A stretch of DNA of 39,933 nucleotides, taken from Clostridia bacterium. GTDB taxonomy: Bacteria; Bacillota; Clostridia; TANB77; CAG-508. Every line of letters begins with the position of its first letter. Position 1 is the stretch's first letter. The notes beneath the pieces are model-generated. The model worked only from the letters and a program-made list of their open reading frames with translations, was not told the DNA's origin and did not search any database. The DNA lies in contig JAFTJF010000004.1 of the NCBI GenBank assembly GCA_017456555.1, forward strand, positions 1 through 39,933, read 5' to 3'. Shown here piece after piece: positions 2,923-39,056 of the stretch. Position numbers and translations under genes: made by a program.

Positions 2923-5900
2923 ATGCTACAAATTAAGAATATATCAAAACAATATAAAACTGGAGATTTGGTTCAAATTGCTTTGAATAATGTTAGTTTA
3001 AATTTTAGAGATAGTGAATTTGTTTCAATACTTGGGCCATCTGGTTCTGGAAAAACAACATTATTAAATATTATAGGCGGACTTGATCGTTATGATAAAG
3101 GTGATTTGATAATAAATAATGTTTCAACTAAAAAGTATAAAGATAGAGATTGGGATTCATATCGTAATCATACAGTTGGATTTGTTTTTCAAAGCTATAA
3201 TTTAATACCTCACCAAACAATTTTAGCAAACGTAGAACTTGCATTAACTATTAGTGGTATATCAAAAAAAGCAAGAAAAAGACGTGCTTTAGCTGCACTT
3301 GATAAAGTAGGACTAAAAGAACAAGCACACAAAAAACCAACTCAAATGTCTGGTGGACAAATGCAAAGGGTTGCTATTGCTAGAGCTTTAGTAAACGATC
3401 CAGATATTTTATTAGCAGATGAGCCAACTGGAGCTTTAGACACACATACAAGTGTACAAGTTATGGAATTATTAAAAGAAGTAGCTAAAGATAGATTAGT
3501 TGTTATGGTTACACATAATCCAGAACTTGCTGAAAAATATTCTACAAGAATTGTAAATTTAAGAGATGGTGAAATTCAAGGAGATACAAATCCATTTGAA
3601 ATAGATTTATCAAAAAGAGAAAAACCAAAACATAAAAACTTAGGTAAGTCTTCAATGTCTTTATTTACTGCATTTTCTTTAAGTTTAAATAACTTATTAA
3701 CTAAAAAAGGAAGAACATTTTTAACATCATTTGCAGGTTCAATTGGTATTATAGGTATTGCAATGATTTTATCTTTATCAACTGGATTCCAAAATTATAT
3801 TGATAAAATTCAAGAAGATACATTAACATCATATCCTCTTACAGTTCAATCTGAAACTGCTGATATGGCATCTATGTTGTTAGGGGCTAATGAAGAGGAA
3901 GATGAAAAAGAAAAAGTTAAAAAAGGTGTTGTTAAAGAACAACAAAATGTTGCAGATTTATTTGCTACAGTTGGAAGAAATGATTTAAAATCATTTAAAA
4001 AACATATCGAAAAAAATCAGGAAAAAGTGGATGAAATGGTATCTTTAACAAGATATAGTTATGCAGTTCAACCAACAATTTATAGAAGAAATACAGAAAA
4101 AGAATTAGTGCTTTTAAATCCAAGTGATTTTATAGCAACATTAATGGGAAGTTCATCAAGTTTAATGTCAGGTGGAATTACAATATTCTCTGAACTTATT
4201 GATAATGAAGAAATGGTTAATGAACAATATGAAGTTATAGAGGGAAAATTTCCGAGTGAATATAATGAAATAATGCTTGTTTTACCAGATGAACATTCAA
4301 TTTCAGATATGTTATTATATGGAATTGCAATAAGAGATCAAGATGAATTAAAAGACATGATTGGAAAAATTGTTGATGGAGAGAAAGTAAAAAACGAAAA
4401 TGAACCATTAGAATTATCTTATGAAGAATTAATGGGGTTAGAATTTAAATTGGTTAATCCTGCTGATACTTATAAATATAACGCTAAATATGATATTTAT
4501 GAAGATATGACTGACGATGAAAAATTTATGAATAATGTTTATGATAATTCATTAGATTTAAAGGTTGTGGGTATAGCTAAGCCAAAAGGTGAATCAATGA
4601 ATGGAATGGCAGGATCTGGAGTATTATATACAAGAAACTTAACTAAGTATGTAATAGAAAAAGCTTCAAAATCAGAAATTGTTCAAAAACAAATGGCAAA
4701 TGAAGATGTAAATGTTTTTAGTGGAAAAGAATTTGATGATGAAGAAAAATCAGCTGGATTAGATTTTCAAGATATGGTTTCAATTGATGAAGATATGCTA
4801 TCAGAAGCTTTTGGAGTTAATATAAATCAATCAGATATTGAAAATATGACTAAAGGATATATTACAGAAATTTCTGGTGCAATTACAGCAGATACTGCAG
4901 GTGCACAAAAAACATTTTTAGATAATTTATCAACAATAACAAAAAATATTTTAAATGATTATATTACGGAGAAACAAGTTGCTGGTATGGCAACAATGAA
5001 ATTAAGTGAAGTTCAAAATGTTGTAACCAATGGATTAGCTAAAGATAAAAATAAATCAATTTTAGCAAGTATGGAAAATCAATATGTAATTCCTCAAGAT
5101 ACATTTTCTCAAATGTATAATGGAATAATTACAGGAATTCTACAACAATATATTTCAATGCAAGTTGGAACAGGAATTCCAGGTGGAGGAATTACTGGTG
5201 GAACAACAGGAGAAACAATACCTGGGGCTGGTAGTGGTGCTGGAACAGGAACAGATAGTTCTGGAACAACTGATAATATAACAATAGAAGGTGGAAATAT
5301 AACTGCTGGTGGAGAAAGTAGTGTACCAAGTATTGGTCAAGGTGGAACAACAACTAATCCAGATTCTAGTGTTGGTTCAACAGATATTACAGGAATATTT
5401 GTAAGTGGAACAACAGATAGTATAGTAGATGAAGTTGTAAAACAAGATATGATAGTTTCTAGTACTAAAGAAATTGCAATTGCAATGACAGAAGCAACAA
5501 TGCAAAAAACAATTTTAACTAAAGTTGGGGAATTAACCGGAAAATTAATGGAAACTATGGGAAGTGCATTTAATGTAAATCCAGATAAAATAGCAAATGC
5601 TTTTAAGTTTGAAATGAATGAAGAAGAAATGAGACGTTTGTTTGAAACATTAACAACAACAACAGTTGAAAATGCAGAGACTAATCTTCTTGCTTTAGGG
5701 TATCAAGATTTAGAAAAGCCAACATCAATATCATTCTATTTTAAAGATTTTGATTCTAAAGAGTTGTTTTTAGATTTTATAGATGAATATAATCAAAAGA
5801 TGGAAAAAGAAGATGAAGAAAAAGTAGTGAAATATTCTGATATAACAGGACTATTAATGTCATCTGTAAAAACAATTGTAGACAGTGTAAGTTATGTGTT

Positions 5901-13032: not shown

Positions 13033-13141
13033 ATTTGCGGTAGTGGCGGAACTTGCTGAAGCTGTTAAAGCTTTGCTTGTTACAGATTCAGTATGTGAAG
13101 CAATTGCTAAATCAATATCAATTTGCGGTAGTGGCGGAACT
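13033..13141. repeat. 21-bp direct repeat duplicating the tRNA-Leu 5' end
   Basis: Bases 13033-13053 are identical to 13121-13141: four nt before the tRNA plus its first 17 nt, including GCGGTAGTGGCGGAACT. The two copies are separated by 67 bp (13054-13120) that reads open in one frame (SVCEAIAKSI among others) but has no credible start. It looks like an insertion or a local duplication at the tRNA 5' end. Confidence 0.85.
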
Positions 13142-13207
13142 GGCAGACGCGCTAGACTTAGGATCTAGTGGGAGACCGTGGGGGTTCAAGTCCTCTCTAC
13201 CGCACCA
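13125..13207 (+). tRNA. tRNA-Leu (anticodon UAG)
   Basis: Acceptor stem GCGGTAG (13125-13131) pairs with CTACCGC (13197-13203), followed by discriminator A and encoded CCA (13205-13207). The anticodon stem-loop is CTAGA-CTTAGGA-TCTAG with anticodon TAG, reading CUA-type Leu codons. A long variable arm (GGGAGACC region) marks a class II tRNA, as for Leu. The T arm contains the standard TTCAAGT. All parts appear intact. Confidence 0.95.
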
Positions 13208-13238
13208 GACCTGAAACTTTAAGTTTCAGGTCTTTTTT
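13200..13238 (+). repeat. 39-bp att-like repeat, left copy (tRNA 3' end plus terminator)
   Basis: This segment (CCGCACCA of the tRNA followed by the terminator hairpin and six Ts) is identical to 14924-14962. The two copies are 1724 bp apart and bracket the NERD/toxin-antitoxin segment. tRNA 3' ends are the classic attachment sites of tyrosine-recombinase elements, but no integrase is present here. Confidence 0.8.
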
Positions 13239-13239
13239 T
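13207..13239 (+). terminator. Terminator of tRNA-Leu
   Basis: AGACCTGAAACT (from 13207) pairs with AGTTTCAGGTCT (to 13233), then seven Ts. The stem begins on the last A of CCA. Confidence 0.9.
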
Positions 13240-13315
13240 GTTTAAATAGTGTTAATATTGTATTATCTTTAAATTGTGATATAATCAATGCAAATTGTGT
13301 TGAAAGGAAAATTAT

Positions 13316-14080
13316 ATGGAATATGCTATAAATCAGTTAATAAAATCATTGATAAATCCAGCAAATATAATAATATTTATACTATTAATATTAGTTACAG
13401 TTTTTTATAAAAAAATCCGTGGTTTTATGGGAGAATTTTGGGTAAAGCAAGAATTAAAAAAATTACCTAAATATAAATATATAATTTTAAATGATATAAT
13501 GATAAAATCTAGCAAAGGTACACATCAAATTGATCATATCATTATTTCTATATATGGAATATTTGTAGTAGAAATGAAAAATTATTATGGGTTAATTACT
13601 GGAGAAGAACATCAAAATAAATGGATTCAACATCTTGGAAAAAATAAATATTATTTTAATAATCCAATTCATCAAAATTATGGTCATATAAAAGCTCTTG
13701 AAGAATTATTAAATTTTAGCGAAGATAAATTTATTTCTATTATTTGTATTTCAAATCAAGCTAAAATAAAAGTAAAAGCAAAAAATGTTACTCAATTAGA
13801 TTTTGTTAATGATTTAATCAAATCATATAATAATGAAATAATTATAGAAGATTTAAGTAAGATAAAAAATAAAATTGAACAAAATAATATCACTGATAAA
13901 GAAATTAGGAAAAGCCATATTAAAAATATAAAGAATACCGTAAAAGAAAATAATGATAAAGAAAAAAATATGATATGTCCTAAATGTGGTGGTAATTTAG
14001 TTGAACGAAAGGGAAAATATGGAAAATTTATAGGGTGTTCGGATTTTCCTAATTGTAAGTATACGAGTAAAAATATCTAA
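13316..14080 (+). CDS. NERD-domain protein with topoisomerase-type zinc finger
   Basis: 254 residues. One membrane helix near the N-terminus (about 13-31) is followed by a NERD (nuclease-related) domain at about 38-150. The restriction-endonuclease-like core has GTHQIDHIIISIYGIFVVEM, then K, placing Asp73 and Glu86-x-Lys88 as the D...ExK metal site. The C-terminus is a topoisomerase-type C4 zinc ribbon (Cys221, Cys224, Cys241, Cys247; CPKCGGNLVERKGKYGKFIG). The family is thought to act on DNA or RNA and is common on plasmids, but no substrate has been fixed. Here it is the main gene of the segment bounded by 39-bp repeats at tRNA-Leu, so a mobile or defence-related role is plausible but unproven. 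GAAAGGA upstream is a modest ribosome binding site. Confidence 0.85.
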   Translation: MEYAINQLIKSLINPANIIIFILLILVTVFYKKIRGFMGEFWVKQELKKLPKYKYIILNDIMIKSSKGTHQIDHIIISIYGIFVVEMKNYYGLITGEEHQNKWIQHLGKNKYYFNNPIHQNYGHIKALEELLNFSEDKFISIICISNQAKIKVKAKNVTQLDFVNDLIKSYNNEIIIEDLSKIKNKIEQNNITDKEIRKSHIKNIKNTVKENNDKEKNMICPKCGGNLVERKGKYGKFIGCSDFPNCKYTSKNI

Positions 14081-14096
14081 ATAGGAGAAATAAAAA

Positions 14097-14381
14097 ATGA
14101 TACAATTATTTATATTATATTTAGCAATAACGGAATGTATTCAAGTCTTTATAGCAAATAAAAAAATTATAAAATGGATTTTGCCTATATTAAATTTTAT
14201 AATTTCTCTTTTTGTCGAAATAAATTTAATTATTTTTACAATGTTAAATGATGGTAAAAACTTTTTTAAAACAATTGATAAAGATGTAATTTTATTATTT
14301 TTAATATTAAATATTCCAACAATTATATATATAATTACAAATATAGTAATTAAGAAACGAAAAGAAAATGAAGATGTATAG
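14097..14381 (+). CDS. Small membrane protein, 94 aa
   Basis: Three predicted membrane segments (about residues 2-18, 24-48 and 63-84) and a short basic/acidic tail (KKRKENEDV). No conserved motif is recognised. It begins 16 nt after the NERD gene with AGGAG upstream, so the two are co-transcribed. Its position inside the repeat-bounded segment suggests a partner of the NERD protein, which is itself membrane-anchored. It lies just before the promoter of the antitoxin RNA. Confidence 0.65.
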   Translation: MIQLFILYLAITECIQVFIANKKIIKWILPILNFIISLFVEINLIIFTMLNDGKNFFKTIDKDVILLFLILNIPTIIYIITNIVIKKRKENEDV

Positions 14382-14391
14382 AAAAATATGT

Positions 14392-14420
14392 TTGACATAT
14401 ACTATTAAAAGTAGTATAAT
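14392..14420 (+). promoter_or_regulatory. Consensus promoter of the antitoxin RNA
   Basis: TTGACA (14392-14397) and TATAAT (14415-14420), exactly 17 bp apart. Both elements are perfect consensus, the strongest-looking promoter in the window; start expected near 14427. Confidence 0.85.
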
Positions 14421-14426
14421 TATATT

Positions 14427-14498
14427 ACAAATTAAGTGTCTGCAGAGTTCATAAAGGACACCAGAACTAAACACTGCAATGTTTAGTTCTTTTTTTTT
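14427..14498 (+). ncRNA. Putative type I antitoxin RNA (RNA II-like), about 72 nt
   Basis: The predicted transcript has no ORF with a ribosome binding site. GTGTC (14436-14440) and GACAC (14457-14461) can pair, displaying a loop that holds most of TCTGCAGAGTTCATA (14439-14453). That 15-mer is the exact complement of the start-codon region of the 14547-14636 peptide mRNA. The RNA ends in a terminator: AGAACTAAACA (14463-14473) with TGTTTAGTTCT (14480-14490), loop CTGCAA, then eight more Ts. The loop is the perfect complement of the toxin-terminator loop TTGCAG. This follows the antitoxin design of the pAD1 par (Fst) system; function is inferred, not shown. Confidence 0.75.
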
Positions 14499-14539
14499 GC
14501 AAAAAAAGAAGAACTGTTACTGCAATAACAGTTCTTCTT
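14499..14539 (-). terminator. Terminator of the toxin mRNA
   Basis: On the minus strand AAGAAGAACTGTTA (14539-14526) pairs with TAACAGTTCTTCTT (14519-14506), perfect 14 bp with hexaloop TTGCAG, followed by a T run into 14501. It nearly abuts the antitoxin terminator, so the two transcripts converge without overlapping. Confidence 0.85.
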
Positions 14540-14546
14540 AAGAGGA

Positions 14547-14636
14547 CTATTCCTCACTTGGTGTCTCTTTTTTATCTTTATCTTTTTCTTCTAATAGAAG
14601 ATTGATTAGATAAAAAATTACATCTGCAGAGTTCAT
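14547..14636 (-). CDS. Putative type I toxin peptide, 29 aa
   Basis: On the minus strand, AAGGAGGTGG (14653-14644) lies 7-10 nt before ATG (14636-14634); the stop TAG is at 14549-14547. The peptide has a hydrophobic core (SADVIFYLINLLL, residues 3-15) followed by a charged tail (EEKDKDKKETPSEE). Size and layout resemble Fst/Ldr-type toxins (about 33 residues, hydrophobic segment plus polar tail). The core is shorter and has an Asn, however, so membrane insertion is less certain, and I see no direct sequence match to Fst. The gene has its own promoter, SD-sequestering 5' hairpin and terminator. It is matched by a convergent RNA complementary to its start. Too short for most gene finders. Confidence 0.7.
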   Translation of the reverse strand: MNSADVIFYLINLLLEEKDKDKKETPSEE

Positions 14637-14648
14637 ATAAAGTCCACC

Positions 14649-14679
14649 TCCTTTCATTAAAGATTTCCTTAAGAAAGGA
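14649..14679 (-). promoter_or_regulatory. 5' hairpin sequestering the toxin ribosome binding site
   Basis: In the toxin mRNA TCCTTTC-TTAAGG (14679-14667) pairs with CTTTAA-(T)-GAAAGGA (14662-14649) around a 4-nt loop: 13 bp with one bulge. It begins one nt after the predicted start point and covers part of the AAGGAGG. In Fst mRNA an equivalent 5' helix holds back translation and protects the RNA end. Confidence 0.75.
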
Positions 14680-14686
14680 TGGAACA

Positions 14687-14715
14687 ATTATAAAGTAAAA
14701 AATATAAAAATACAA
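14687..14715 (-). promoter_or_regulatory. Promoter of the toxin mRNA
   Basis: Minus-strand TTGTAT (14715-14710) and TATAAT (14692-14687), spacer 17 bp. Start near 14680, immediately before the 5' hairpin. Confidence 0.65.
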
Positions 14716-14923
14716 TACTAAAAAACATAAAATTTAAGCAAGTTTTAGGGGTTGCTGTACAAAAGTTTGTTTGTTACTTTAATATCAATGCTGAAGTCCT
14801 CTCTTTTTTGAAAAATAAAACATTATGTTACTAAAAGGCTGAAATGCAGTATTTTACATATAAGGACTTCTTCTGTACAAAATCTCGCAAAGTACTGATA
14901 TATAAAGAAATAAGTTGTACCTG
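14716..14923. other. Non-coding tail of the island with short repeats
   Basis: No credible gene. CTGTACAAAA occurs twice (14755-14764 and 14873-14882), and GAAGTCCT (14793-14800) is inverted as AGGACTTC (14863-14870). This could be remnant recombination or regulatory sequence; the function is unknown. Confidence 0.5.
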
Positions 14924-14962
14924 CCGCACCAGACCTGAAACTTTAAGTTTCAGGTCTTTTTT
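14924..14962 (+). repeat. 39-bp att-like repeat, right copy
   Basis: Identical to 13200-13238: CCGCACCA, the GACCTGAAACTTT hairpin and the T run. The sequence before it (TTGTACCTG) does not continue a tRNA, so this is a copy of only the tRNA 3' end and terminator, as expected at the far end of an element inserted at a tRNA gene. Confidence 0.8.
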
Positions 14963-15007
14963 AGTTTATACATAATGTAGAAATGAATAAAATATAAAAA
15001 TACCTAT

Positions 15008-15036
15008 TTGACTTAGAATAAAAGAGATATTATAAT
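15008..15036 (+). promoter_or_regulatory. Promoter-like site before the rearranged toxin-antitoxin copy
   Basis: TTGACT (15008-15013) and TATAAT (15031-15036), spacer 17 bp. It occupies the position that the antitoxin promoter has in the intact module. A 10-bp hairpin (ATATTATTGA/TCAATAATAT, about 15045-15076) follows. Confidence 0.6.
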
Positions 15037-15101
15037 AAAATTAATATTATTGAGATTAGCGAATTTCAATAATATTTCTTAAATGCTACCCACATTTAGG
15101 A

Positions 15102-15234
15102 AAATAAGAATAGTTTGGGTAGAAACAGTTCTTATTTGAGGATATTCCTCGTTTGCTTTATCTTTTATAAAAAGGTATAAAATTATATCAGCAGAGGTCA
15201 AAAAAGAGTAAAACGCTGCAACGTTTTACTCTTT
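15102..15234 (-). pseudogene. Rearranged remnant of a second toxin-antitoxin module
   Basis: On the minus strand, 15200-15120 aligns with the intact toxin: CTCTGC, GAT, TAATTTT, AAAGATAAAG, GAGGAATA, CCTC and TAAGAACTG are shared in the same order. In frame it reads SADIILYLFIKDKANEE against SADVIFYLINLLLEEKD, but the start codon and ribosome binding site are gone. In their place, directly after the repeat-like CAGCAGAGGTCA (15189-15200), is an antitoxin-type terminator on the plus strand (AAGAGTAAAACG/CGTTTTACTCTT) with the same CTGCAA loop (15216-15221). A hairpin AAATAAGAA/TTCTTATTT (15102-15110, 15129-15137) stands where the toxin terminator would be. The arrangement is what recombination between the two internal repeats of neighbouring modules would leave. 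Confidence 0.6.
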
Positions 15235-15289
15235 TTTATAACGTTTATCTTAAATATTAATACAGTTATCACAAGTATAGCTTTTTTTA

Positions 15290-15317
15290 TTGAATGAAAA
15301 AATAGAAATGCTATAAT
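15290..15317 (+). promoter_or_regulatory. Promoter of the LytTR operon
   Basis: TTGAAT (15290-15295) and TATAAT (15312-15317), spacer 16 bp, 19 bp before ATG. Confidence 0.6.
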
Positions 15318-15336
15318 TTATTTAAGAGGTGAAACA

Positions 15337-15804
15337 ATGGAAATAAAAATTAACACGAATATTTCTGAAGAATTTTCAAATATAACTATAAACATAAATG
15401 CTCCAAAGATGACTGAAGAAGTTGAAAATATTATAAGACAAATATCTAATATTAATAGTATTCCAAATCAGGTTATTGGATATATAAATAATGAAATATA
15501 TTTTATAGAATTAAAAGACATTATTTGTTTTTTTAGTAAAGATAAATATGTTTTTGCAAGAACTAAAGAAAATAGCTATAAGATAAAATATAAATTATAT
15601 GAATTGAATGAAATTTTCGAACAAAAAGATTTTATTAGAATTTCAAATTCTTGTATCATAAATATTAATAAAATTGAATGTTTTGATACAAGTATAATCG
15701 GAACAATAACTGTAAAAATGAAAGATGGAACAAAAGAGATTGTATCTAAAAGAAATGTTTCTCAGATAATGAAATTATTAAAGCAAAGGGGGAATTTAAA
15801 ATGA
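15337..15804 (+). CDS. LytTR-domain transcriptional regulator
   Basis: 155 residues with no receiver domain. The C-terminal LytTR DNA-binding domain covers about 52-150 (FIELKDIICFFSKDKYVFAR; FIRISNSCIININKIECF; VSKRNVSQIMKLL). The N-terminal 50 residues are a short alpha/beta extension seen in small LytTR proteins paired with membrane partners. It overlaps the next gene by 4 nt (ATGA), so the two are translationally coupled. In known pairs of this type (LytTR regulatory systems, DUF3021 partners) the membrane protein holds the regulator in check; that relation is inferred here. RBS AGAGGTG. Confidence 0.85.
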   Translation: MEIKINTNISEEFSNITININAPKMTEEVENIIRQISNINSIPNQVIGYINNEIYFIELKDIICFFSKDKYVFARTKENSYKIKYKLYELNEIFEQKDFIRISNSCIININKIECFDTSIIGTITVKMKDGTKEIVSKRNVSQIMKLLKQRGNLK

Positions 15805-18349: not shown

Positions 18350-18355
18350 AAATAA

Positions 18356-18393
18356 AAGAAGAATTGTTAATTAAATAACAGTTCTTCTTTTTT
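18356..18393 (+). terminator. Terminator after the GT-C-like gene
   Basis: AAGAAGAATTGTTA (18356-18369) and TAACAGTTCTTCTT (18376-18389), loop of 6 nt, then Ts. Arms equal those of the toxin terminator (14506-14539) except for one base. Confidence 0.88.
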
Positions 18394-22504: not shown

Positions 22505-25500
22505 ATGAATAAGGGGCAATTTATTCTTGGCAAAAAAGTAGTTGCATTACTTTTGTTAATCGTAGTGCTATCAACTTATATGCCATTAAACCTAGTTTAT
22601 GGTGTATCTGATGCTATTAGTTCAGAACCAGAAACAAACACAGTGGTAGAAAATACTTTACCAACAAACGAAGTAGTTAATAATACTCAATCAGATGAGA
22701 TTATAAATGATGCTCCAAATGAGCAGACAAACAATGTAGTAGAAAATAATACTGAAGCTACGCAACCATCAGTACCCGTAGTGGAAGAGAATAAAATAGA
22801 AAATCAAGATGTTCCGGAGAACAACAGCGAAAATAACGTTGTTGTTGATAATGGTGCTCAAAAAGAAGCAGAAGGAACAACAGAGGAAGCAACAGAAGAA
22901 ACAACTCAAAATCAAGTAGGAAGTGAATCAAATGTAGAAGATTCGCTTAATTCTGATGTTTCAAATACTGTGAAAACAGAAAACAAATTAGAAAATCAAG
23001 AAGAAATAAAACAAGAAGATGAAAATCAAGTAGAAAATACTACTGAAGAGATAGAAAATAATAATAATTTAATAGATAATAAAGAGAATTTGGATAACGA
23101 AGAAGGTAACGTAAATGATGTTATAGTAAACAAAATAAATCTAACTGGAAATATTACATGGATAGATAATCAAAATAGCTACGGAACAAGACCTTCAAGC
23201 ATTAAAGTGAGCTTAATAAAAAATGATGAAGCTACTGCAATGAAAGAGGTTGAAGTTAATCCAGATGCAACAGGAAATTGGGTATATAATTTCCAAGAAT
23301 TAGACGAACAAGATGAAAACGGAGTGAACATAACATACAAAATTACAACTAATGGAATAGAAAATTATAATGTTGTTATTGATGAAAATAATAATATTAA
23401 AAGTACTTTAGTTGGAAAAACAGAAGTTGTAGGAAGTAAGGTTTGGAAAGACAACTCAAACGCTTACGGAACAAGACCTGCAGCTATTACAGTTAATTTG
23501 TTAAAAAATGCTGGTACTGCAGTTGTAAATTCTACAAGCGTTACTGCAGATAATGAAGGAAACTGGAATTATAAATTTGAAAATCTAGAAAAATATGATG
23601 AAAATGGTGTTTTAATAGATTATCAAGTAGCAGAAAATGAAATTGCTGGTTATGAAACAGTTCAAGAAGGAACTAATTTTGTAAGTAAATTAGTTGGCAA
23701 AACAGAATTAAAAGGAACAATTACTTGGGAAGACCAAGAAAATAAAGATGCTACAAGACCAGAAATTATTTATGTTAGTGTATTAGAAAATGGAAATAAA
23801 ACATCTGCTAAATCTTATGCTATAACTGCAGATGAAAATGGAAATTGGAATTATACTTTTGAAAATTTAGAAAAATATGATGAAAATGGAACTATAATCA
23901 ATTATTCAATTATAGTTAATGAAATAGAAAATTATAAATCTATTGTAGAAACAGTAAACCAAAATGAAATTAACATATCAAATATATATTCACCAAAGAT
24001 AGAAATGGATTTTACTTGGCAAGATATTCTTTCTTATGGTCCATACATGTCAATGAATGTTAAATATGCTGAAGAATACGGTTTAGAAGTTTCTCAAGAG
24101 GAAATGTATATATATGAAAAATATCAAGAAATGATATATGTAAGAGGACCTGAACTTGCAGCAATTGCAATGTTTGAAGGAACTGATGATTTTACCGAAG
24201 AAGAATTAGCAATATATAATGCATATCAAGAAATAGTATTAAATGGTGGAGAAAAAAGTCCTATTTCAACTTTAGCAGAAATGGGAGATACAGGAAAAGC
24301 AATTAAAAATGACGGAACACCAGTTTTAGCATATTTAAGGTGTTATGGAAGACCTGTTCGTAATTCAATAAAATACGTAACTTCTGTAGACAAGAATGCT
24401 CCAGAAAAGGGGAACCGTGTGGCTTATTGCGTAAACTATGATAGAAGTTATGAAAATTCAGCAACTTATGATGGAACTTCTTGGGATAAGATTGTAGATA
24501 AATATGAACCAGTATATTTAAGATTATATTCAGAACTTTCTTATTTAGTTTCTATAGGGTGTAAAGAATATGAATATACAAGTGAATCAGCTTATTCAAC
24601 TGGAAGATGGAAAGAAGATTACTATGCAACACAAACAGTTATATATAATGTAATTTATGATTATACAGGATATAAAGATCCAAAAACTGGTGAATACGAT
24701 ACTACATCATTAGCAACATTACAAGAAATCTTAAGAGATATTAAAGCAGAAGATAGTAGTTCTTTAAAAATTAATCCAAACAATATAAATGATGTAATAA
24801 AAGTTGCAGATAAAATTAGAGAAACTTTTACAGGTCATCCAGGTGGAGATGAAACAACTTTAAATTCTGCTTATTCAAGATCACAACAAGTAAAAGATGC
24901 TGTTACGAAAATATATAATGCTGTAACAGATTACAGAAATAATATATATAGTTTAGATAATGCAGATGGATATGCAGCTTCAATAATAATAAAAGATATT
25001 TCAGATTTTGAATTTATAGAAAGAACAAATGGAAAATCTTATTATGAAGTTATAGTAACAGTTGAAACTACAGGAAAAGTAAATGGTAATATAAGTGTTA
25101 CTGCAACAGGAAGTGGATTTTCTGCAACAGGAACACAAATTGATTCATCAAATCAATATAAAATAAAAATTCCAAAAAATAAAATTGGAAATCAAAAAAG
25201 TTTTACTTTTACAGCATCAGCTAATTTTGATATGAGTAGAACAATTACTTATATTAGTGAAGTTAAAGGAACTCAAAATGTTGCATTCTATCAAACAAAT
25301 GTGGATCAAGATGCAATGAAGATGGTTTCTAATACAAAAACAGGACCAAATACTTATGCGATAAATGGTTCTAAAACATGGAAAGATAATAACAACGAAT
25401 ATAAAACAAGACCATCAAGCATTAAAATAAAATTACTTTCAGGAAGTACAGTTCTTGAAACAAAAACAGTTACACCTGATGCAAATGGTAATTGGACTTG

Positions 25501-27538
25501 GAGCTTTACAAACTATCCAAATCAAACTGGATATACTATCGAAGAAGAAGTTAATGGAAAATATGTATCAACAGTAAATGGATATAATGTTACAAATACA
25601 CTTACAGACAAAACAGAAGTTTCTGTAACAAAACAATGGAAAGACAATAGCAACAAATATAGTACTAGACCAAGTGAAATAACAGTAAATTTATTAAGAA
25701 ATGGAACTGTATATAAAACAGAAAAATTAAATTCAAGCAGAGCAACAGATAAAAATACATGGAAATATACATTTACAGGATTAGCAAAATATGATTCAAA
25801 TGGTAAATTATATAAGTATACAGTATCAGAAGAACCTGTTCAATCTGCAAAACCTGAAGTTGGAACTTATAAATCTGAAGTAAATGGAACAACTATTATA
25901 AATACATTAGTTGGAAAAGTTGAACTTGGTGGAGAAAAAACTTGGAAAGATAATAATAACGCATATGGTACAAGACCAGATAGTATTAGAGTTGAATTAT
26001 TAGAAAACGGAAAATATAACAACAAATATATTGATGTAACAGAAAATCAAGATAGAAAATGGTTATTCTTATTTAGTGAACTAGATAAATTTGATAAAGA
26101 TGGTAAAGAAATAACATATAAAATAAAAGAAAATCCATCAATTGGTGAAAACTATGAAGTAACTGTAGATGGAAACAACTTAATTAATAAATTAGTTGGA
26201 AAAGTAAAAGTTGGTGTAAAAAAAGCTTGGAATGATGATAATAATCATCATGATACAAGACCTGAATATATAACAGTTAATTTATTAGCAGATAATGTTC
26301 TAGTAGATTCTTATAATTTAACTGAAGCAGACAATTGGAGCCATACTTTTGAAGATTTAGATAAATACACAGAAGAAGGTGTAAAAATTGTTTATACAAT
26401 ATCAGAAACTGCAATAGTTGAAGTTCCAGCTGGAAGATATGTTACAACTATTACAGAAGGTGTAGCATCAACAGAAGATGATAAACAATATGAATTAACA
26501 AACTGCTTAACAGATGAGATTAATATAAAAGGTGCAAAAATCTGGAAAGACAACAACAATGAATATGGAACAAGACCAGAAACAATAACAATAAAATTAT
26601 ATAGAGAAAATAAAAATGTTTCAAAAGAATATGTTCAAGAAACAACAATTTCAGCAGATAGCGATGGAAATTGGGGATATGAATTTACTGGTTTACCAAA
26701 ATATGATGCTAAAGGTGTGAAATATGATTACACTGTAGAAGAAAATGTAATACCAGAACATGAAGAAGGCCACTATGTAGATACTTATAAAGTAACTACT
26801 GAAAATGATGAAGAAAAAGTTATAGATATTACTAATAGACTAACAGGAACAACAGAACTTGGCGGAGGAAAAACTTGGAAAGATAACAATAATGCATATG
26901 GAACAAGACCAGATAGTATAATTGTAAATCTTTTAGCAAATGGAGAAAAAGTTCAAGACAAAGAAGTTACTGAAGGAGAATTAGGAAATTGGAATTTCTT
27001 CTTTGAAAACTTAGTAAAATTTGATGAAGAAGGAAAGAAAATTGAATATTCAATTTCTGAAAATGATATTATAAATTATATTGGTAAAGTTGAAAATACA
27101 AATATAACAAATACTTTAACTGGAACAACAGAAGTTCAAGGTATTAAAATTTGGCATGATAGTGATAATGACTATGAAACAAGACCAGAAAGCATAATTG
27201 TAAAATTATTAGCAAATGGAAAAGTAATAGATAAAAAATCTGTAAAAGCTGATGAAAATGGCGAATGGAAATTTGCATTTGAAGATTTAGATGAATATGA
27301 TTCTGAAGGTGTAAAAATTGAATATACTGTAGATGAAGTTCCAGTTGATAGATATGCAACTGATATAAAAGGAACAACAATAATTAATACATTAATTCAT
27401 AATCATGTTGACTTAGTAAATCTTGACTCAGCACCAAAAACAGGTAAAAAGAATTTATTAACTGTATTCTCATTAACAGCATTAATGTCATTAGTAGGAA
27501 TGTTTATAGTTAGCAAAAAAGAAGAAGATAAATTCTAG
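22505..27538 (+). CDS. Sortase-anchored thioester/CnaB-repeat surface adhesin
   Basis: 1677 residues. Signal peptide at 1-35 (KKVVALLLLIVVLSTYMPL), then an Asn/Glu-rich low-complexity stretch (about 38-205). Three CnaB-type domains follow (about 213-498). Next is a thioester domain with the Cys-Gln pair Cys642 (RVAYCVNYD) and Gln710 (YATQTVIYN), and a TQXA-type beta domain (about 800-945). Seven more CnaB domains follow (952-1630), then sorting signal SAPKTG (1642-1647), membrane helix and KKEEDKF tail. Thioester domains bind host surfaces covalently and CnaB stalks are stiffened by Lys-Asn isopeptide bonds, so this is a wall-anchored adhesin. AGGGGGAG precedes the ATG. The dedicated class B sortase is 8 nt downstream. 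Confidence 0.92.
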   Translation: MNKGQFILGKKVVALLLLIVVLSTYMPLNLVYGVSDAISSEPETNTVVENTLPTNEVVNNTQSDEIINDAPNEQTNNVVENNTEATQPSVPVVEENKIENQDVPENNSENNVVVDNGAQKEAEGTTEEATEETTQNQVGSESNVEDSLNSDVSNTVKTENKLENQEEIKQEDENQVENTTEEIENNNNLIDNKENLDNEEGNVNDVIVNKINLTGNITWIDNQNSYGTRPSSIKVSLIKNDEATAMKEVEVNPDATGNWVYNFQELDEQDENGVNITYKITTNGIENYNVVIDENNNIKSTLVGKTEVVGSKVWKDNSNAYGTRPAAITVNLLKNAGTAVVNSTSVTADNEGNWNYKFENLEKYDENGVLIDYQVAENEIAGYETVQEGTNFVSKLVGKTELKGTITWEDQENKDATRPEIIYVSVLENGNKTSAKSYAITADENGNWNYTFENLEKYDENGTIINYSIIVNEIENYKSIVETVNQNEINISNIYSPKIEMDFTWQDILSYGPYMSMNVKYAEEYGLEVSQEEMYIYEKYQEMIYVRGPELAAIAMFEGTDDFTEEELAIYNAYQEIVLNGGEKSPISTLAEMGDTGKAIKNDGTPVLAYLRCYGRPVRNSIKYVTSVDKNAPEKGNRVAYCVNYDRSYENSATYDGTSWDKIVDKYEPVYLRLYSELSYLVSIGCKEYEYTSESAYSTGRWKEDYYATQTVIYNVIYDYTGYKDPKTGEYDTTSLATLQEILRDIKAEDSSSLKINPNNINDVIKVADKIRETFTGHPGGDETTLNSAYSRSQQVKDAVTKIYNAVTDYRNNIYSLDNADGYAASIIIKDISDFEFIERTNGKSYYEVIVTVETTGKVNGNISVTATGSGFSATGTQIDSSNQYKIKIPKNKIGNQKSFTFTASANFDMSRTITYISEVKGTQNVAFYQTNVDQDAMKMVSNTKTGPNTYAINGSKTWKDNNNEYKTRPSSIKIKLLSGSTVLETKTVTPDANGNWTWSFTNYPNQTGYTIEEEVNGKYVSTVNGYNVTNTLTDKTEVSVTKQWKDNSNKYSTRPSEITVNLLRNGTVYKTEKLNSSRATDKNTWKYTFTGLAKYDSNGKLYKYTVSEEPVQSAKPEVGTYKSEVNGTTIINTLVGKVELGGEKTWKDNNNAYGTRPDSIRVELLENGKYNNKYIDVTENQDRKWLFLFSELDKFDKDGKEITYKIKENPSIGENYEVTVDGNNLINKLVGKVKVGVKKAWNDDNNHHDTRPEYITVNLLADNVLVDSYNLTEADNWSHTFEDLDKYTEEGVKIVYTISETAIVEVPAGRYVTTITEGVASTEDDKQYELTNCLTDEINIKGAKIWKDNNNEYGTRPETITIKLYRENKNVSKEYVQETTISADSDGNWGYEFTGLPKYDAKGVKYDYTVEENVIPEHEEGHYVDTYKVTTENDEEKVIDITNRLTGTTELGGGKTWKDNNNAYGTRPDSIIVNLLANGEKVQDKEVTEGELGNWNFFFENLVKFDEEGKKIEYSISENDIINYIGKVENTNITNTLTGTTEVQGIKIWHDSDNDYETRPESIIVKLLANGKVIDKKSVKADENGEWKFAFEDLDEYDSEGVKIEYTVDEVPVDRYATDIKGTTIINTLIHNHVDLVNLDSAPKTGKKNLLTVFSLTALMSLVGMFIVSKKEEDKF
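23141..23990 (+). repeat. N-terminal CnaB repeats 1-3 (coding)
   Basis: Three tandem units of about 93 codons with W.D..N...TRP..I.V.L near the start and L..YDE.G near the middle. Isopeptide positions read Ile/Thr/Ser in unit 1, Lys/Glu/Ser in unit 2 and Ile/Val/Asn in unit 3 (Lys, Glu and Asn expected), so none has the full triad. Confidence 0.8.
25358..27400 (+). repeat. C-terminal CnaB repeats 4-10 (coding)
   Basis: Seven tandem units of 85-113 codons beginning G.KTWKDNNN.Y.TRP and ending (I/T)N(T/K/R/C)L. All seven keep the Lys two residues before Trp, the Glu in YTVxE and the terminal Asn. DNA of units 6 and 9 is particularly alike (GCATATGG-ACAAGACCAGATAGTAT region), suggesting recent copying. 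Confidence 0.85.
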
Positions 27539-35328: not shown

Positions 35329-35361
35329 ATTGGTACAAATTTAATGAATAAAAACTTTGAA

Positions 35362-35602
35362 AAGGACAAGATAAATAAAGTAAAACCTTAAAAGAGAGCT
35401 GGGAAAGGTGAAAGCCAGTAGGAAAATAATTTATTTATTATCACCTTGGAGTTAATTATTTGAACGTTTTTATATAAGTAAAATAATTCGCATTGCCTTG
35501 CGTTAAAAGGAAAAGAGATAATTATATTTCAAGATATAGTTAATATTAGGTGGTATCGCGATAACGAGTCGTTTCGTCCTTTTAGGATGGAACGACTTTT
35601 TG
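35362..35602 (+). promoter_or_regulatory. T-box leader, isoleucine type
   Basis: Stem I contains AGAGAGCTGG (from about 35393) and GGTGAAAGCCAG, then the specifier loop ATCACCTTGGAG, where ATC (35440-35442) is an Ile codon in the standard place before ACC. The T-box AGGTGGTATCGCGA (35548-35561) has TGGT, which pairs with ACCA of an uncharged tRNA. The terminator is AGTCGTTTCGTCCT (35567-35580) with AGGATGGAACGACT (35584-35597), then Ts. Uncharged tRNA-Ile would stabilise the antiterminator and switch on proX-ileS. Confidence 0.92.
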
Positions 35603-35639: not shown

Positions 35640-36125
35640 ATGAAAGAAAAAGTATTAAACAAATTAAAAGAACTAAACATTGATTACAAGGAAATTGAAC
35701 ATACCCCCGTTTATACAATTGAAGATATGGACAATTTAGGTAATATTTTTGAAAATGCGAAAATTTGTAAAAACTTATTTGTAAGAGATCAAAAAGGAAA
35801 AAGACATTTTCTAGTTGTTCTTCCAGAAGAAAAAAGAGCACCACTAGCTGATATTGCTACAAAGATTGGAAGTACAAAATTAAGTTTTGCTTCTGAAGAA
35901 AGATTGATGAAATATTTAAAATTAGAACCAGGTGCTGTAACTCCATTAGCTGTAATTAATGATGAAGCAAATGAAGTTGAAGTTGTATTTGATGAAGATT
36001 TGAAAAAAGAAGCAATGCTTGGAGTTCATCCATGTGTAAATACAGCTACAATATTACTTACACCAACAGAACTTGAAAAATATGTAACATCTAATAATAA
36101 CAAATTAAAATATATTAAAATTTAA
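35640..36125 (+). CDS. proX: Prolyl-tRNA editing protein (YbaK/ProX family)
   Basis: 161 residues, single YbaK/aminoacyl-tRNA deacylase domain. Features are EIEHTPVYTIEDMD (residues 18-31), CKNLFVRDQKGKRHFLVVLP (42-61; Lys-Asn-Leu-Phe with the substrate-binding Lys), GAVTPLAVIND (99-109) and HPCVNTATILL (130-140). It is of the ProX/PrdX type, which hydrolyses mischarged Ala-tRNA(Pro) in trans. It is the first gene after an Ile-specific T-box and 144 nt before ileS, so it is induced by isoleucine shortage rather than by proline or alanine. This is unusual for its substrate. AGGAGG precedes ATG. Confidence 0.85.
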   Translation: MKEKVLNKLKELNIDYKEIEHTPVYTIEDMDNLGNIFENAKICKNLFVRDQKGKRHFLVVLPEEKRAPLADIATKIGSTKLSFASEERLMKYLKLEPGAVTPLAVINDEANEVEVVFDEDLKKEAMLGVHPCVNTATILLTPTELEKYVTSNNNKLKYIKI

Positions 36126-36269: not shown

Positions 36270-39056
36270 ATGTGTAAAGATTGCGAAGAGAAAAAAGATT
36301 ATGGTAAAACACTAAATTTACCAAAAACAGACTTCCCAATGAGAGCTAGTCTTCCAGAAAATGAACCTAAAATACAAGCAAGAGTATTTGATCAAGGTTT
36401 ATATGAAAAAATGCTTAAGAAAAATGAAGGAAATACACCTTTTGTATTACATGATGGACCACCTTATGCAAATGGAGAAATCCATATAGGACATGCTTTA
36501 AACAAAGTATTAAAAGACACTATAGTAAGATACAAAAACTTACAAGGATTTTATACTCCATTTATACCAGGATATGATACACATGGTATGCCAACAGAGA
36601 AAAAAGCAATTGAAAAATTAGGATTAAATAGAGATGAAATTCCAGTAAATACATTTAGAGATACATGTAAACAATTTACTATGGATTACAAAGATAAACA
36701 AACAGAAGGATTTAAACGTTTAGGTGTTCTTGGTGACTGGGAAAATCCATATATAACATATCAACCACAAATGGAAGCAAAACAAATTGGTGTATTTGCT
36801 GATATGTATAAAAAAGGATATATCTATAAAGGATTAAAACCTGTTTACTGGTGTACAGATTGCGAAACAGCTTTAGCTGAAGCTGAAATCGAATATAAAG
36901 ATATAAATTCAAATACAGCATATGTAAAATTCCCAGTTGTTGATGGAAAAGGATTAGTTCAAAGAGATAATACTTATGTAGTAATCTGGACAACAACTCC
37001 ATGGACATTACCAGGAAACACAATGATAGCTGTAGGTGAAGATTTTGATTATGCAGTAGTAAGAGTTGGAACAGAAAGATTAATATTTGCTAAAGACTTA
37101 GTAGAACAAGTTATGAAAAAAGCTGGAATCGAAGAATATGAAATAGAAGAAGATTTCAAAGGAAAAGCTTTAGCTGGAATAGTATGTAAACACCCATTCT
37201 TAGATAGAACTTCAACAGTAGTTACAGGAACAGAAGATTCTGTAAATGTAGAACTTGGAACAGGTTCAGGATGTGTTCACTGTGCACCAAGTTATGGTAA
37301 AGAAGACTATTTATTAGGTTTAAAACATAATAGTGAAATAATAGTTACAGTTGACTCTAAAGGTGTTCAAAGAGGAGAAGGCGCTGGACCATTTAAAGAT
37401 ATGTATTATGCAAAATCTGATAAAGAAATAATCAAATGGTTAGAAGAAAACAATTTATTATTAGCTAGTGAAGTTGTAAATCACTCATATCCACATTGCT
37501 GGAGATGTAAAAAACCAGTTATCTTTAGAGCTACAAGTCAATGGTTTGCATCTGTTGATGGATTTAGAAAAGAATCTTTAGATGCAATAAAATCTGTAAA
37601 ATGGTATCCAGCTTGGGGGGAAGAAAGAATCTCTAAAATGATAGAAGATAGAAATGATTGGTGTATTTCTCGTCAAAGAACATGGGGAGTTCCAATACCA
37701 GTATTCTATTGCAAAGACTGTGAAAAAGAATATGTTACTCCAGAAAGTTTGGATAAAGTTCAAGGAATAGTTAAAGAGCAAGGAACAAATGCATGGTTTG
37801 GTTTGTCTGAAAAAGAATTAATGCCAGAAGGTGCAAAATGTTCTTGTGGATGTGAAGAATTCAAAAAAGGAACAGATATCATGGATGTTTGGTTTGATTC
37901 TGGATCAACACATGAATCAGTTCTTGCTGAAAGAGGACTTCCAGAAGCTGATTTATACTTAGAAGGAAGTGACCAATATAGAGGATGGTTCCAATCTTCA
38001 CTTTTAACATCAGTTGCTGTAAAAGGAAAAGCTCCTTATAAAGAAGTTTTAACACATGGTTACACAGTTGATGAGCAAGGAAGAAAAATGTCTAAATCTA
38101 TAGGAAATGTTGTTGCACCTCAAGAAATAATCAAAGAATCAGGTGCAGATGTTTTAAGACTTTGGGTATTAGCTTCTGACTATAAATCTGATGTTAGTGT
38201 TTCTAAAAACATAATCAAACAAGTAACAGAAGTTTATAGAAAAATAAGAAATACAGCTAGATATATTTTAGGAAATACATCTGATTTTGATGTTAACAAT
38301 CCTGTAGTATATGAAGATTTACAAGAAATAGATAAATGGGCTTTAACAAGATTAAATAAATTAATTGCTACATGCACAAAAGCTTATGATACTTATGAAT
38401 TCCATGAAGCATATCAAGCTATAAATCAATTCTGTGTTGTAGATATGAGCCAATTCTATTTAGATATAATCAAAGATAGATTATATACATCTAGACCAGA
38501 TAGTTTAGAAAGAAGAGCAGCTCAAACTACAATGTATGAAATATTATCTTGTTTAGTTAGAATATTAGCTCCAATGACATGCTTTACAGCAGAAGAAATC
38601 TGGAGTTACATGGCTCATAGAGATGGAGAAAACACTGAAAGCGTTATGCTTGAAAAATATCCACAAGTAAATCCAAAATATGAAAATGAAGAATTAGCTT
38701 TAAGATGGGCTAAACTTATAAAAGTAAAAGAAGAAGTTGCTAAAAAGTTAGAAGTAGCAAGAGCAAATAAAGAAATAGGATTATCTTTAGAGGCAAAAGT
38801 TACATTATTTGCAGAAAGCGATGAATATGAATTCTTAAAAGGAAAAGAAAATCTATTAAAAGAAATCTTTATAGTTTCTGATGTTGTAGTTAACGAAAAC
38901 AGAAGAAATGCTGATGAAGAAGTTGCAATTGGTGTAAAAGTAGAAAGAGCTGAAGGTGAGAAATGTGAAAGATGCTGGATGTATTCTACTACAGTTGGAG
39001 AAAGTGCAGAATATCCAACTCTTTGCGAAAGATGTAGAGATAATATAATAGAATAA
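36270..39056 (+). CDS. ileS: Isoleucyl-tRNA synthetase
   Basis: 928 residues, normal length for bacterial class I IleRS. Motifs: PPYANGEIHIGH (64-75; the HIGH signature 72-75), the CP1 editing domain with TTPWTLPGN and GTGCVHCAPSYG-like core (GSGCVHCAPSYGKEDY), KMSKS (606-610), and a C-terminal Zn ribbon (Cys899, Cys902, Cys919, Cys922). It charges tRNA-Ile with Ile and edits Val. Controlled by the upstream Ile T-box with proX; there is no second promoter that I can see in the 144-bp gap. AAAGGAG precedes ATG. Confidence 0.98.
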   Translation: MCKDCEEKKDYGKTLNLPKTDFPMRASLPENEPKIQARVFDQGLYEKMLKKNEGNTPFVLHDGPPYANGEIHIGHALNKVLKDTIVRYKNLQGFYTPFIPGYDTHGMPTEKKAIEKLGLNRDEIPVNTFRDTCKQFTMDYKDKQTEGFKRLGVLGDWENPYITYQPQMEAKQIGVFADMYKKGYIYKGLKPVYWCTDCETALAEAEIEYKDINSNTAYVKFPVVDGKGLVQRDNTYVVIWTTTPWTLPGNTMIAVGEDFDYAVVRVGTERLIFAKDLVEQVMKKAGIEEYEIEEDFKGKALAGIVCKHPFLDRTSTVVTGTEDSVNVELGTGSGCVHCAPSYGKEDYLLGLKHNSEIIVTVDSKGVQRGEGAGPFKDMYYAKSDKEIIKWLEENNLLLASEVVNHSYPHCWRCKKPVIFRATSQWFASVDGFRKESLDAIKSVKWYPAWGEERISKMIEDRNDWCISRQRTWGVPIPVFYCKDCEKEYVTPESLDKVQGIVKEQGTNAWFGLSEKELMPEGAKCSCGCEEFKKGTDIMDVWFDSGSTHESVLAERGLPEADLYLEGSDQYRGWFQSSLLTSVAVKGKAPYKEVLTHGYTVDEQGRKMSKSIGNVVAPQEIIKESGADVLRLWVLASDYKSDVSVSKNIIKQVTEVYRKIRNTARYILGNTSDFDVNNPVVYEDLQEIDKWALTRLNKLIATCTKAYDTYEFHEAYQAINQFCVVDMSQFYLDIIKDRLYTSRPDSLERRAAQTTMYEILSCLVRILAPMTCFTAEEIWSYMAHRDGENTESVMLEKYPQVNPKYENEELALRWAKLIKVKEEVAKKLEVARANKEIGLSLEAKVTLFAESDEYEFLKGKENLLKEIFIVSDVVVNENRRNADEEVAIGVKVERAEGEKCERCWMYSTTVGESAEYPTLCERCRDNIIE

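Follow-up and report, generated by a model that had tools for sequence, protein, structure and literature searches.

A putative par-like type I toxin-antitoxin module with a new peptide family in uncultured Clostridia

Introduction

The described system that comes closest to the locus reported here is par_pAD1/Fst of Enterococcus faecalis, in which, as in the chromosomal par homologues, a peptide mRNA and a small antisense RNA are convergent, direct repeats are present with one of them over the initiation region, and a 5' hairpin lies on the Shine-Dalgarno (SD) sequence (PMC7472228). Contact between these two RNAs starts at complementary terminator loops (PMC7472228), and a YUNR U-turn is described as present in some and not all of the par homologues. 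For the type I modules of Clostridioides difficile (CD2907.1-RCd9, CD0977.1-RCd11 and others), toxins of 34–59 residues with positively charged tails are described, and several of these toxins lie in prophages (PMC6563280; PMC7699646). In txpA/RatA of Bacillus subtilis, the apical loops, including those of the terminators, are described as complementary to loops of the partner RNA, and the RNAs pair over a long 3' overlap of some 120 nt (PMC3531473). Here we report on a stretch of 39,933 nt from a Clostridia bacterium (contig JAFTJF010000004.1, assembly GCA_017456555.1), which as a whole is called the window in the following, and on its positions 14392–14715, which read as a par-like type I toxin-antitoxin module with a peptide gene facing an antisense RNA.

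It is likely that this module is a type I toxin-antitoxin system of a new peptide family with a mode of action like that of the pAD1 par locus. What the sequences themselves show are the elements, covariation at two principal contact sites and in part at a third, coding selection on the peptide, and the distribution and decay of the loci. Judged from sequence, the module appears to work like par_pAD1 and yet not to encode Fst, while the other two described groups stand further from it than par. With the C. difficile modules it shares a small peptide with a charged tail, an antisense RNA, the occurrence in Clostridia and several copies per genome; unlike those toxins as described, its peptides have 24–43 residues and are mostly negative, and in contrast to modules several of which lie in prophages, one relative's peptide had no match among 50,697 phage records. 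Unlike the RNAs of txpA/RatA, the two RNAs of the module have a predicted overlap that hardly exceeds one or two bases, and they are predicted to pair through separate repeats.

Layout of the Module in the Window and in Its Relatives

The module in the window and a decayed second copy beside it consist of the following elements.

14392–14420, plus strand: antisense RNA promoter TTGACA-17-TATAAT, 12/12 consensus (sequence scoring)
14427–14499, plus strand: antisense RNA antitoxin, predicted 73 nt (from the promoter-to-terminator span, folded)
14436–14461, plus strand: antisense RNA 5' hairpin GTGTCT/GGACAC displaying the repeat (predicted fold)
14439–14453, plus strand: direct repeat copy TCTGCAGAGTTCATA within the antisense RNA (sequence)
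14463–14490, plus strand: antisense RNA terminator with loop CTGCAA, the complement of the mRNA terminator loop (sequence)
14498–14681, minus strand: putative peptide mRNA, 184 nt (from promoter and terminator, folded)
14506–14539, minus strand: mRNA terminator with loop TTGCAG (sequence)
14547–14636, minus strand: 29-residue peptide gene including the stop, MNSADVIFYLINLLLEEKDKDKKETPSEE (open reading frame, relatives, purifying selection)
14623–14637, minus strand: direct repeat copy TCTGCAGAGTTCATA, start codon and codons 2–5, contact site (sequence, covariation)
14644–14653, minus strand: SD region AAGGAGGTGG (sequence)
14649–14679, minus strand: mRNA 5' hairpin covering part of the SD sequence (predicted fold)
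14687–14715, minus strand: peptide mRNA promoter TTGTAT-17-TATAAT, 9/12 consensus (sequence scoring)
15101–15237, minus strand: decayed second copy with repeat, SD-less peptide body, degraded terminator and fused antitoxin-type terminator (by eye)

An earlier note on this DNA had read two facing near-consensus promoters with 17-bp spacing, which stands for the plus strand and falls short for the minus strand. Its further structural claims are borne out: the 29-residue peptide gene is the minus-strand open reading frame (ORF) listed above, and the proposed 13-bp hairpin at the mRNA 5' end is predicted with 13 pairs and one bulged base and includes AAGGA of AAGGAGGTGG. The plus-strand RNA, claimed to have about 72 nt and an exact 15-nt complement of the start region in a hairpin, is predicted to fold with a 14-nt hairpin loop that holds 12/15 repeat bases and is followed by the terminator; TCTGCAGAGTTCATA stands at both 14439–14453 and 14623–14637, and therefore the two RNAs would be complementary over the start and the next codons. 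Since ATTGCAGT around the loop is common to both window terminators, the two terminator loops are complementary as RNAs, again as claimed. Terminator-like sites in the module region number 5 compared to 0.2 in shuffles, and promoter-like sites are no commoner than in shuffles (11 vs. 10.5).

Relatives were collected by script, which skipped any fetched locus that lacked an acceptable frame and SD and yielded 109 distinct peptide loci including the window. One spurious match was dropped, and 105 of the remaining 108, with at least 150 nt after the stop and with the window included, form the main set; near-identical loci were thinned by shared 12-mers to a non-redundant set of 75. From 60 distinct loci collected later, 21 already in the main set were left out and 39 were used. 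The convergent layout for which the earlier note had suggested searching with the peptide recurs across the family and covaries there, which supports the proposed pAD1 par logic of direct repeats, convergence and SD sequestration. As in par_pAD1, the promoters are convergent, in the window and as a rule, the exception being one genome (G025) with a divergent layout. Also like par_pAD1, a 5' stem-loop on the SD is predicted, with at least 3/5 SD bases paired in 69/73 non-redundant 5' leaders (mean z-score -2.80 vs. mononucleotide shuffles). The antitoxin promoter reaches at least 11/12 in 80/98 loci compared to 3/300 control windows. At the median, predicted antitoxins are 69 nt long, and unpaired positions make up 66% of their repeat core compared to 52% of the entire antitoxin 5' part (n = 57).

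The Repeat Over Codons 2–5

The repeat over codons 2–5 agrees within a locus and differs between loci. In the 75 non-redundant loci, the toxin start region scores on average 12.15 against its cognate antitoxin and 7.65 against mismatched ones, and the cognate score is reached by 0/2000 permutations. The cognate antitoxin is the single best partner in only 22/75 loci, probably because many relatives have similar first codons. Resolved by position (69 non-redundant loci), it is codons 2–5 that account for the gain, which is largest where the peptide leaves the base free: identity in cognate vs. mismatched pairs is 0.90 vs. 0.37 at +5 and 0.90 vs. 0.31 at +8, which are wobble positions of the peptide gene, and 0.86 vs. 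0.36 at +10. There is hardly any match at the start codon's first base (0.46 vs. 0.41). The complementary stretch, the loss of which in homologous loci the earlier note had named as evidence against its proposal, is thus kept, with both sides changing in step.

A score of at least 8 near the gene is found in 98/105 loci of the main set and in 33 of the 39 later loci, 3 of the other 6 having too little flank. In addition, a second block 5' of the start codon shares at least 6 nt in 37/69 loci compared to 7.9% of mismatched pairs, which was reached by 0/2000 permutations, so that here, like in par_pAD1, direct repeats (DRa/DRb) are crossed by both RNAs. Predicted cognate duplexes have a mean of -29.2 kcal/mol vs. 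-13.2 kcal/mol for mismatched ones (n = 57). For the window the duplex prediction proposed in the earlier note comes to -37.2 kcal/mol, and its own antitoxin ranks first of the 57 antitoxins tried on the window start region.

The Terminator Loops

Complementary terminator loops are the second feature in which covariation is seen and a further likeness to par_pAD1. The final parser found both terminators in 89/105 loci; it replaced a first parser (loops in 100 loci, 85 with at least 5 nt shared), which was dropped for misplacing some hairpins, and a stricter one, which gave no pair in 41 entries. The loops share at least 5 nt in 82/89 and at least 6 nt in 79/89 parsed loci, compared to 9.1% and 5.0% of mismatched loop pairs, and the observed sum is reached by 0/5000 permutations. 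Among non-redundant loops the numbers are 54/59 and 52/59 vs. 9.3% and 3.7%, and in the 39 later loci the same parser found 30 pairs, 25 of which share at least 5 nt. A difference from par_pAD1 is that a YUNR U-turn is present in only 17/54 non-redundant toxin loops and 21/54 antitoxin loops.

The earlier note had stressed that the terminators are separate. This holds for the window and most relatives, which unlike par_pAD1 have two terminators with loops complementary by covariation, and it does not hold for four loci on three contigs, which like par_pAD1 have, by eye, a single shared bidirectional terminator.

Closely related loci reveal how the loops differ. L112 and L116 (locus handles are ours) are 88% identical and have the same stems in both terminators, with the loop CCACCA twice in the one and TGGTGG twice in the other, and these words are reverse complements of each other. 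Similarly, L106 has the loop CCGACA, and its relatives L131 (91% identical) and L118 (89%) have TGTCGG and CTGCCA, each in both terminators (the second L118 loop was read by eye); further reverse-complement loop words occur across the family. We know of no simple route to such a paired replacement that does without selection for the match. A bolder joint reading, which we hold only tentatively and rather doubt as a whole, is that the loops act as a lock and key that can be rewritten, both being exchanged together, even for the reverse complement, on stems that stay fixed. The locus would then naturally give rise to new RNAs that pair specifically, perhaps via concerted loop inversion or conversion, and the peptide would be an amphipathic toxin that is short and differs from those type I toxins that span the membrane.

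Antitoxin Linkage and Decay

An antitoxin is recognisable for 104/105 peptide genes, 96 by script (repeat score of at least 8 plus either matching loops or an antisense promoter scoring at least 10/12) and 8 by eye, four of these displaced. Among the nine script misses, a loop word is present in L050 and L168, and the repeat in L070 and L121. Inserted DNA separates the antitoxin from the peptide gene in L105, L108, and L028, where its distance to the start codon is about 0.34, 1.0, and 1.5 kb, respectively, and in L034, the locus of G025, the antitoxin lies upstream of the peptide gene in divergent order; insertions between the genes and a divergent layout set the module apart from par_pAD1. 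The ninth miss, L119, runs into a palindromic contig end. L028, L034, L105, and L108 had been considered as peptide genes without antitoxin, which was rejected when the antitoxin was found displaced, and all four keep loop words of at least 5 nt by eye. In L108, about 0.85 kb (3137–3990) is inserted directly after the toxin terminator with the antitoxin kept beyond; the insert starts with GTGCGAC and in this may resemble a group II intron.

Broken peptide genes are found beside kept antitoxins: the start is lost in L011, L038 and L057 have an in-frame stop, and L041, for which the parser gives no loop match, has lost the SD. In the window's own genome (G000), a second locus (L002, C9) has an 86% identical antitoxin region and no peptide gene, and the repeat of this lone antitoxin still spells M-T-S-A-D on the toxin strand. 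Its duplex with the window mRNA is predicted at -24.6 compared to -37.1 with the window's own antitoxin. Such toxin-first decay is the pattern that we would expect in toxin-antitoxin loci. By eye, the L002 antitoxin (1501–1647) lies near sigma-factor-like ORFs, and the decayed copy at 15101–15237 of the window, in which the repeat links the peptide body with the antitoxin-type terminator, looks as if tandem copies recombined at the repeat.

The Peptide Family

The reading frame is conserved among relatives, the lack of which the earlier note had listed as a counter-indication: the ratio of nonsynonymous to synonymous polymorphism (pN/pS) is 0.28 in codons 6–15 and 0.87 in the tail (72 loci), and the helix is therefore taken to be under protein-level selection with the tail nearly free. 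Among 93 distinct peptides, D/E5 is conserved in 93, I7 in 92, W8 in 81, R9 in 71, L10 in 92, and L14 in 92; the window peptide is without W. The median length is 29 residues within the range of 24–43, the net charge is mostly negative, and the helical hydrophobic moment is 0.43 compared to 0.27 in shuffles.

A profile of 28 peptides of the window's genus (A2) matches 133/292 genomes of the window's taxonomic family in 25/39 genera (E ≤ 1e-3), and the positive genomes have 1 to 7 matches each. In an order sample, 101/287 genomes match at E ≤ 1e-4, the matches listed all being from the same taxonomic family. The class sample yielded 4/391 genomes, all of this family, and the phylum sample 1/398, which is the window's own genome, so that neither sample holds a match outside the family. 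Among named genomes, a scan turned up 62 loci with titles such as uncultured Clostridia, Clostridium, and Lachnospiraceae, and the relatives with a stated source come from animals (deer, goat, sheep, and chicken among them).

No family was found in Pfam and NCBIfam for 4 peptides or in PHROGs for 5 peptides, each with E up to 10, and one relative's peptide had no match among plasmid records. Viral contigs gave 18 pattern matches to the peptide, none of which was confirmed, and four weak PDB matches to A2 (best E 0.0042), with proteins that are engineered, designed, or of the ankyrin-repeat type, were set aside as helix composition. At the RNA level, Rfam gave no match on the module at gathering thresholds, only sub-threshold matches in a permissive scan of 14080–15400, and no match in 20 relatives. 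Neither a description of the peptide family nor the motif DLIWRLI was found in the literature searched, which mostly excludes subscription papers. The peptide family thus appears to be new and is known so far from one taxonomic family of uncultured Clostridia.

Proposed Mechanism and Alternative Explanations

We propose that the 5' hairpin of the mRNA would fold in the ribosome site, and that the antisense RNA, which has the better promoter, would first touch the mRNA via the terminator loops, as their covariation suggests. It would then pair over codons 2–5 and, in many loci, also at the second block beside the ribosome site, as covariation and duplex energies indicate, and the peptide would not be made. 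A drop of the antisense RNA, e.g., by loss of the locus or stress, would allow translation. With its amphipathic helix and polar tail, the peptide would then probably arrest growth by acting at the membrane or on some target in the cell. Every locus would have its own RNA key. Transcription, silencing, toxicity, and the order of contact in this scheme are what we infer from the sequences.

Several observations weigh against this scheme. The peptide mRNA promoter is weak in the window, and in the main set only 50/105 loci reach at least 10/12. Only 27/57 predicted antitoxins have a repeat core of which at least 70% is unpaired, so loop display as in the window is not universal, and the cognate duplex is the strongest in 39/57, not in all. 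Seven of the 89 parsed loci share fewer than 5 nt in their loops (L040, L041, L058, the second copy of L079, L119, L121, and L141), and 16/105 have no parsed terminator pair; of these 16, eight share a loop word by eye (L010, L013, L036, L039, L070, L085, L118, and L149), four are those with the single shared terminator (L124, L135, and two in L146), and four have the displaced antitoxin (L028, L034, L105, and L108). Among the later loci, 9 gave no terminator pair, and in 5 of those parsed the loops have fewer than 5 nt in common. Copies within one genome cross-match in 10/94 cases compared to 8.1% between genomes, so that copies tend to have different keys with no extra avoidance, and additional insulation between copies of one genome was considered and not found. 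As to the peptide, a 19-residue Kyte-Doolittle mean of 1.6 is reached by only 1/93, the longest stretch free of D, E, K, R, N, Q, and H has a median of 8 residues, and this short hydrophobic stretch appears unlike that of the usual membrane-spanning type I toxins. Finally, nearly all named relatives are metagenome-assembled genomes.

The strongest alternative, which we nevertheless regard as improbable, is an antisense-controlled peptide that is not toxic, e.g., a signalling or membrane-adaptor peptide silenced except in one condition. Toxicity is indeed deduced here, a short amphipathic helix in which D/E5, W8, and R9 are conserved could bind a protein partner, and intact peptide genes are common. 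Such a peptide would fit poorly, however, with the patchy presence at 1 to 7 matches per genome and with neighbours that are not widely shared, as only 5/247 ORF clusters occur in at least 3 of 71 loci. The broken peptide genes beside kept antitoxins, the lone antitoxin, and an antitoxin for 104/105 genes speak instead for the toxin-antitoxin pattern.

Still less probable is that the module is a very divergent branch of par/Fst by descent, which inherited the RNA circuit while its peptide diverged. Convergent genes, repeats at the start codon, the 5' hairpin over the SD, and complementary terminator loops are what such descent would leave, and the four loci with one shared terminator are in the pAD1 state. 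The peptide argues against it and agrees with the earlier view that it does not look like Fst: the Fst family PF13955 matched none of 4 peptides at E up to 10 and was found in 0/53 genomes of the genus, a genome search that is not very sensitive because the control was found in only 1/14 named genomes and below its cut-off. A PXXXG-type motif ([PDST]xxxG) is present in residues 1–20 of 0/93 distinct peptides, and unlike in Fst, W stands between the helix and the charged tail (residues 14–22) in only 2/93, with W8 in 81/93 instead; the helix also appears too short for the usual membrane span.

A chance or repeat-element artefact, made up of similarly looped palindromes and a coincidental 15-mer, for which a similar palindrome at window 18351–18393 might be cited, has practically no probability left, being already refuted by covariation at both contacts that permutation never equalled, and purifying selection on the peptide likewise speaks against it.

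With the type I toxin-antitoxin reading as the preferred one, the about one hundred natural variants with covarying contact sites form a data set on how small RNAs find their partners, and the loci with shared and separate terminators in one family allow the step between these states to be studied. Moreover, a peptide family present in 133/292 sampled genomes of one family of uncultured Clostridia is added to those known.

Genomic Setting and Other Features of the Window

On one side the module is flanked by a zinc-ribbon NERD-nuclease gene (13316–14080), which is followed by a small membrane-like ORF, and on the other by a LytTR gene; a tRNA-Leu gene (13125–13207) is found upstream. The 3' end of this tRNA-Leu with its terminator (13188–13244) is repeated 1.72 kb downstream at 14912–14968 (57 nt, 89%), and the two copies bracket the nuclease gene, the small membrane ORF, and the module. 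Possibly, this 1.7-kb piece was integrated at the tRNA. In another genome (G007) the order is, with genes assigned by eye, the same (tRNA-Leu, zinc-ribbon-like ORF, nuclease-like ORF, small membrane ORF, module), and a tRNA-Leu 3' repeat as in the window was not reported there. A conserved RNA at 14745–14965 was considered and is not supported, as matches were found in 4/53 genomes of the genus with only 26–35 nt outside G000, and the end of the segment is the copy of the tRNA 3' end. Upstream of the tRNA-Leu, 13033–13062 is a 30-nt, 90% copy of the start of the tRNA-Leu gene and may be a tRNA remnant.

Further along the window, the palindrome at 18351–18393, which resembles a module terminator, follows an unrelated ORF. 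At 22505–27538, an ORF of 1677 residues has, by eye, repeated blocks and an anchor-like C-terminus, and a sortase-like ORF follows it. A T-box leader above the gathering score is located at 35348–35584, upstream of 35640–36125, and the ORF 36270–39056 downstream of this leader reads by eye like an isoleucyl-tRNA synthetase.
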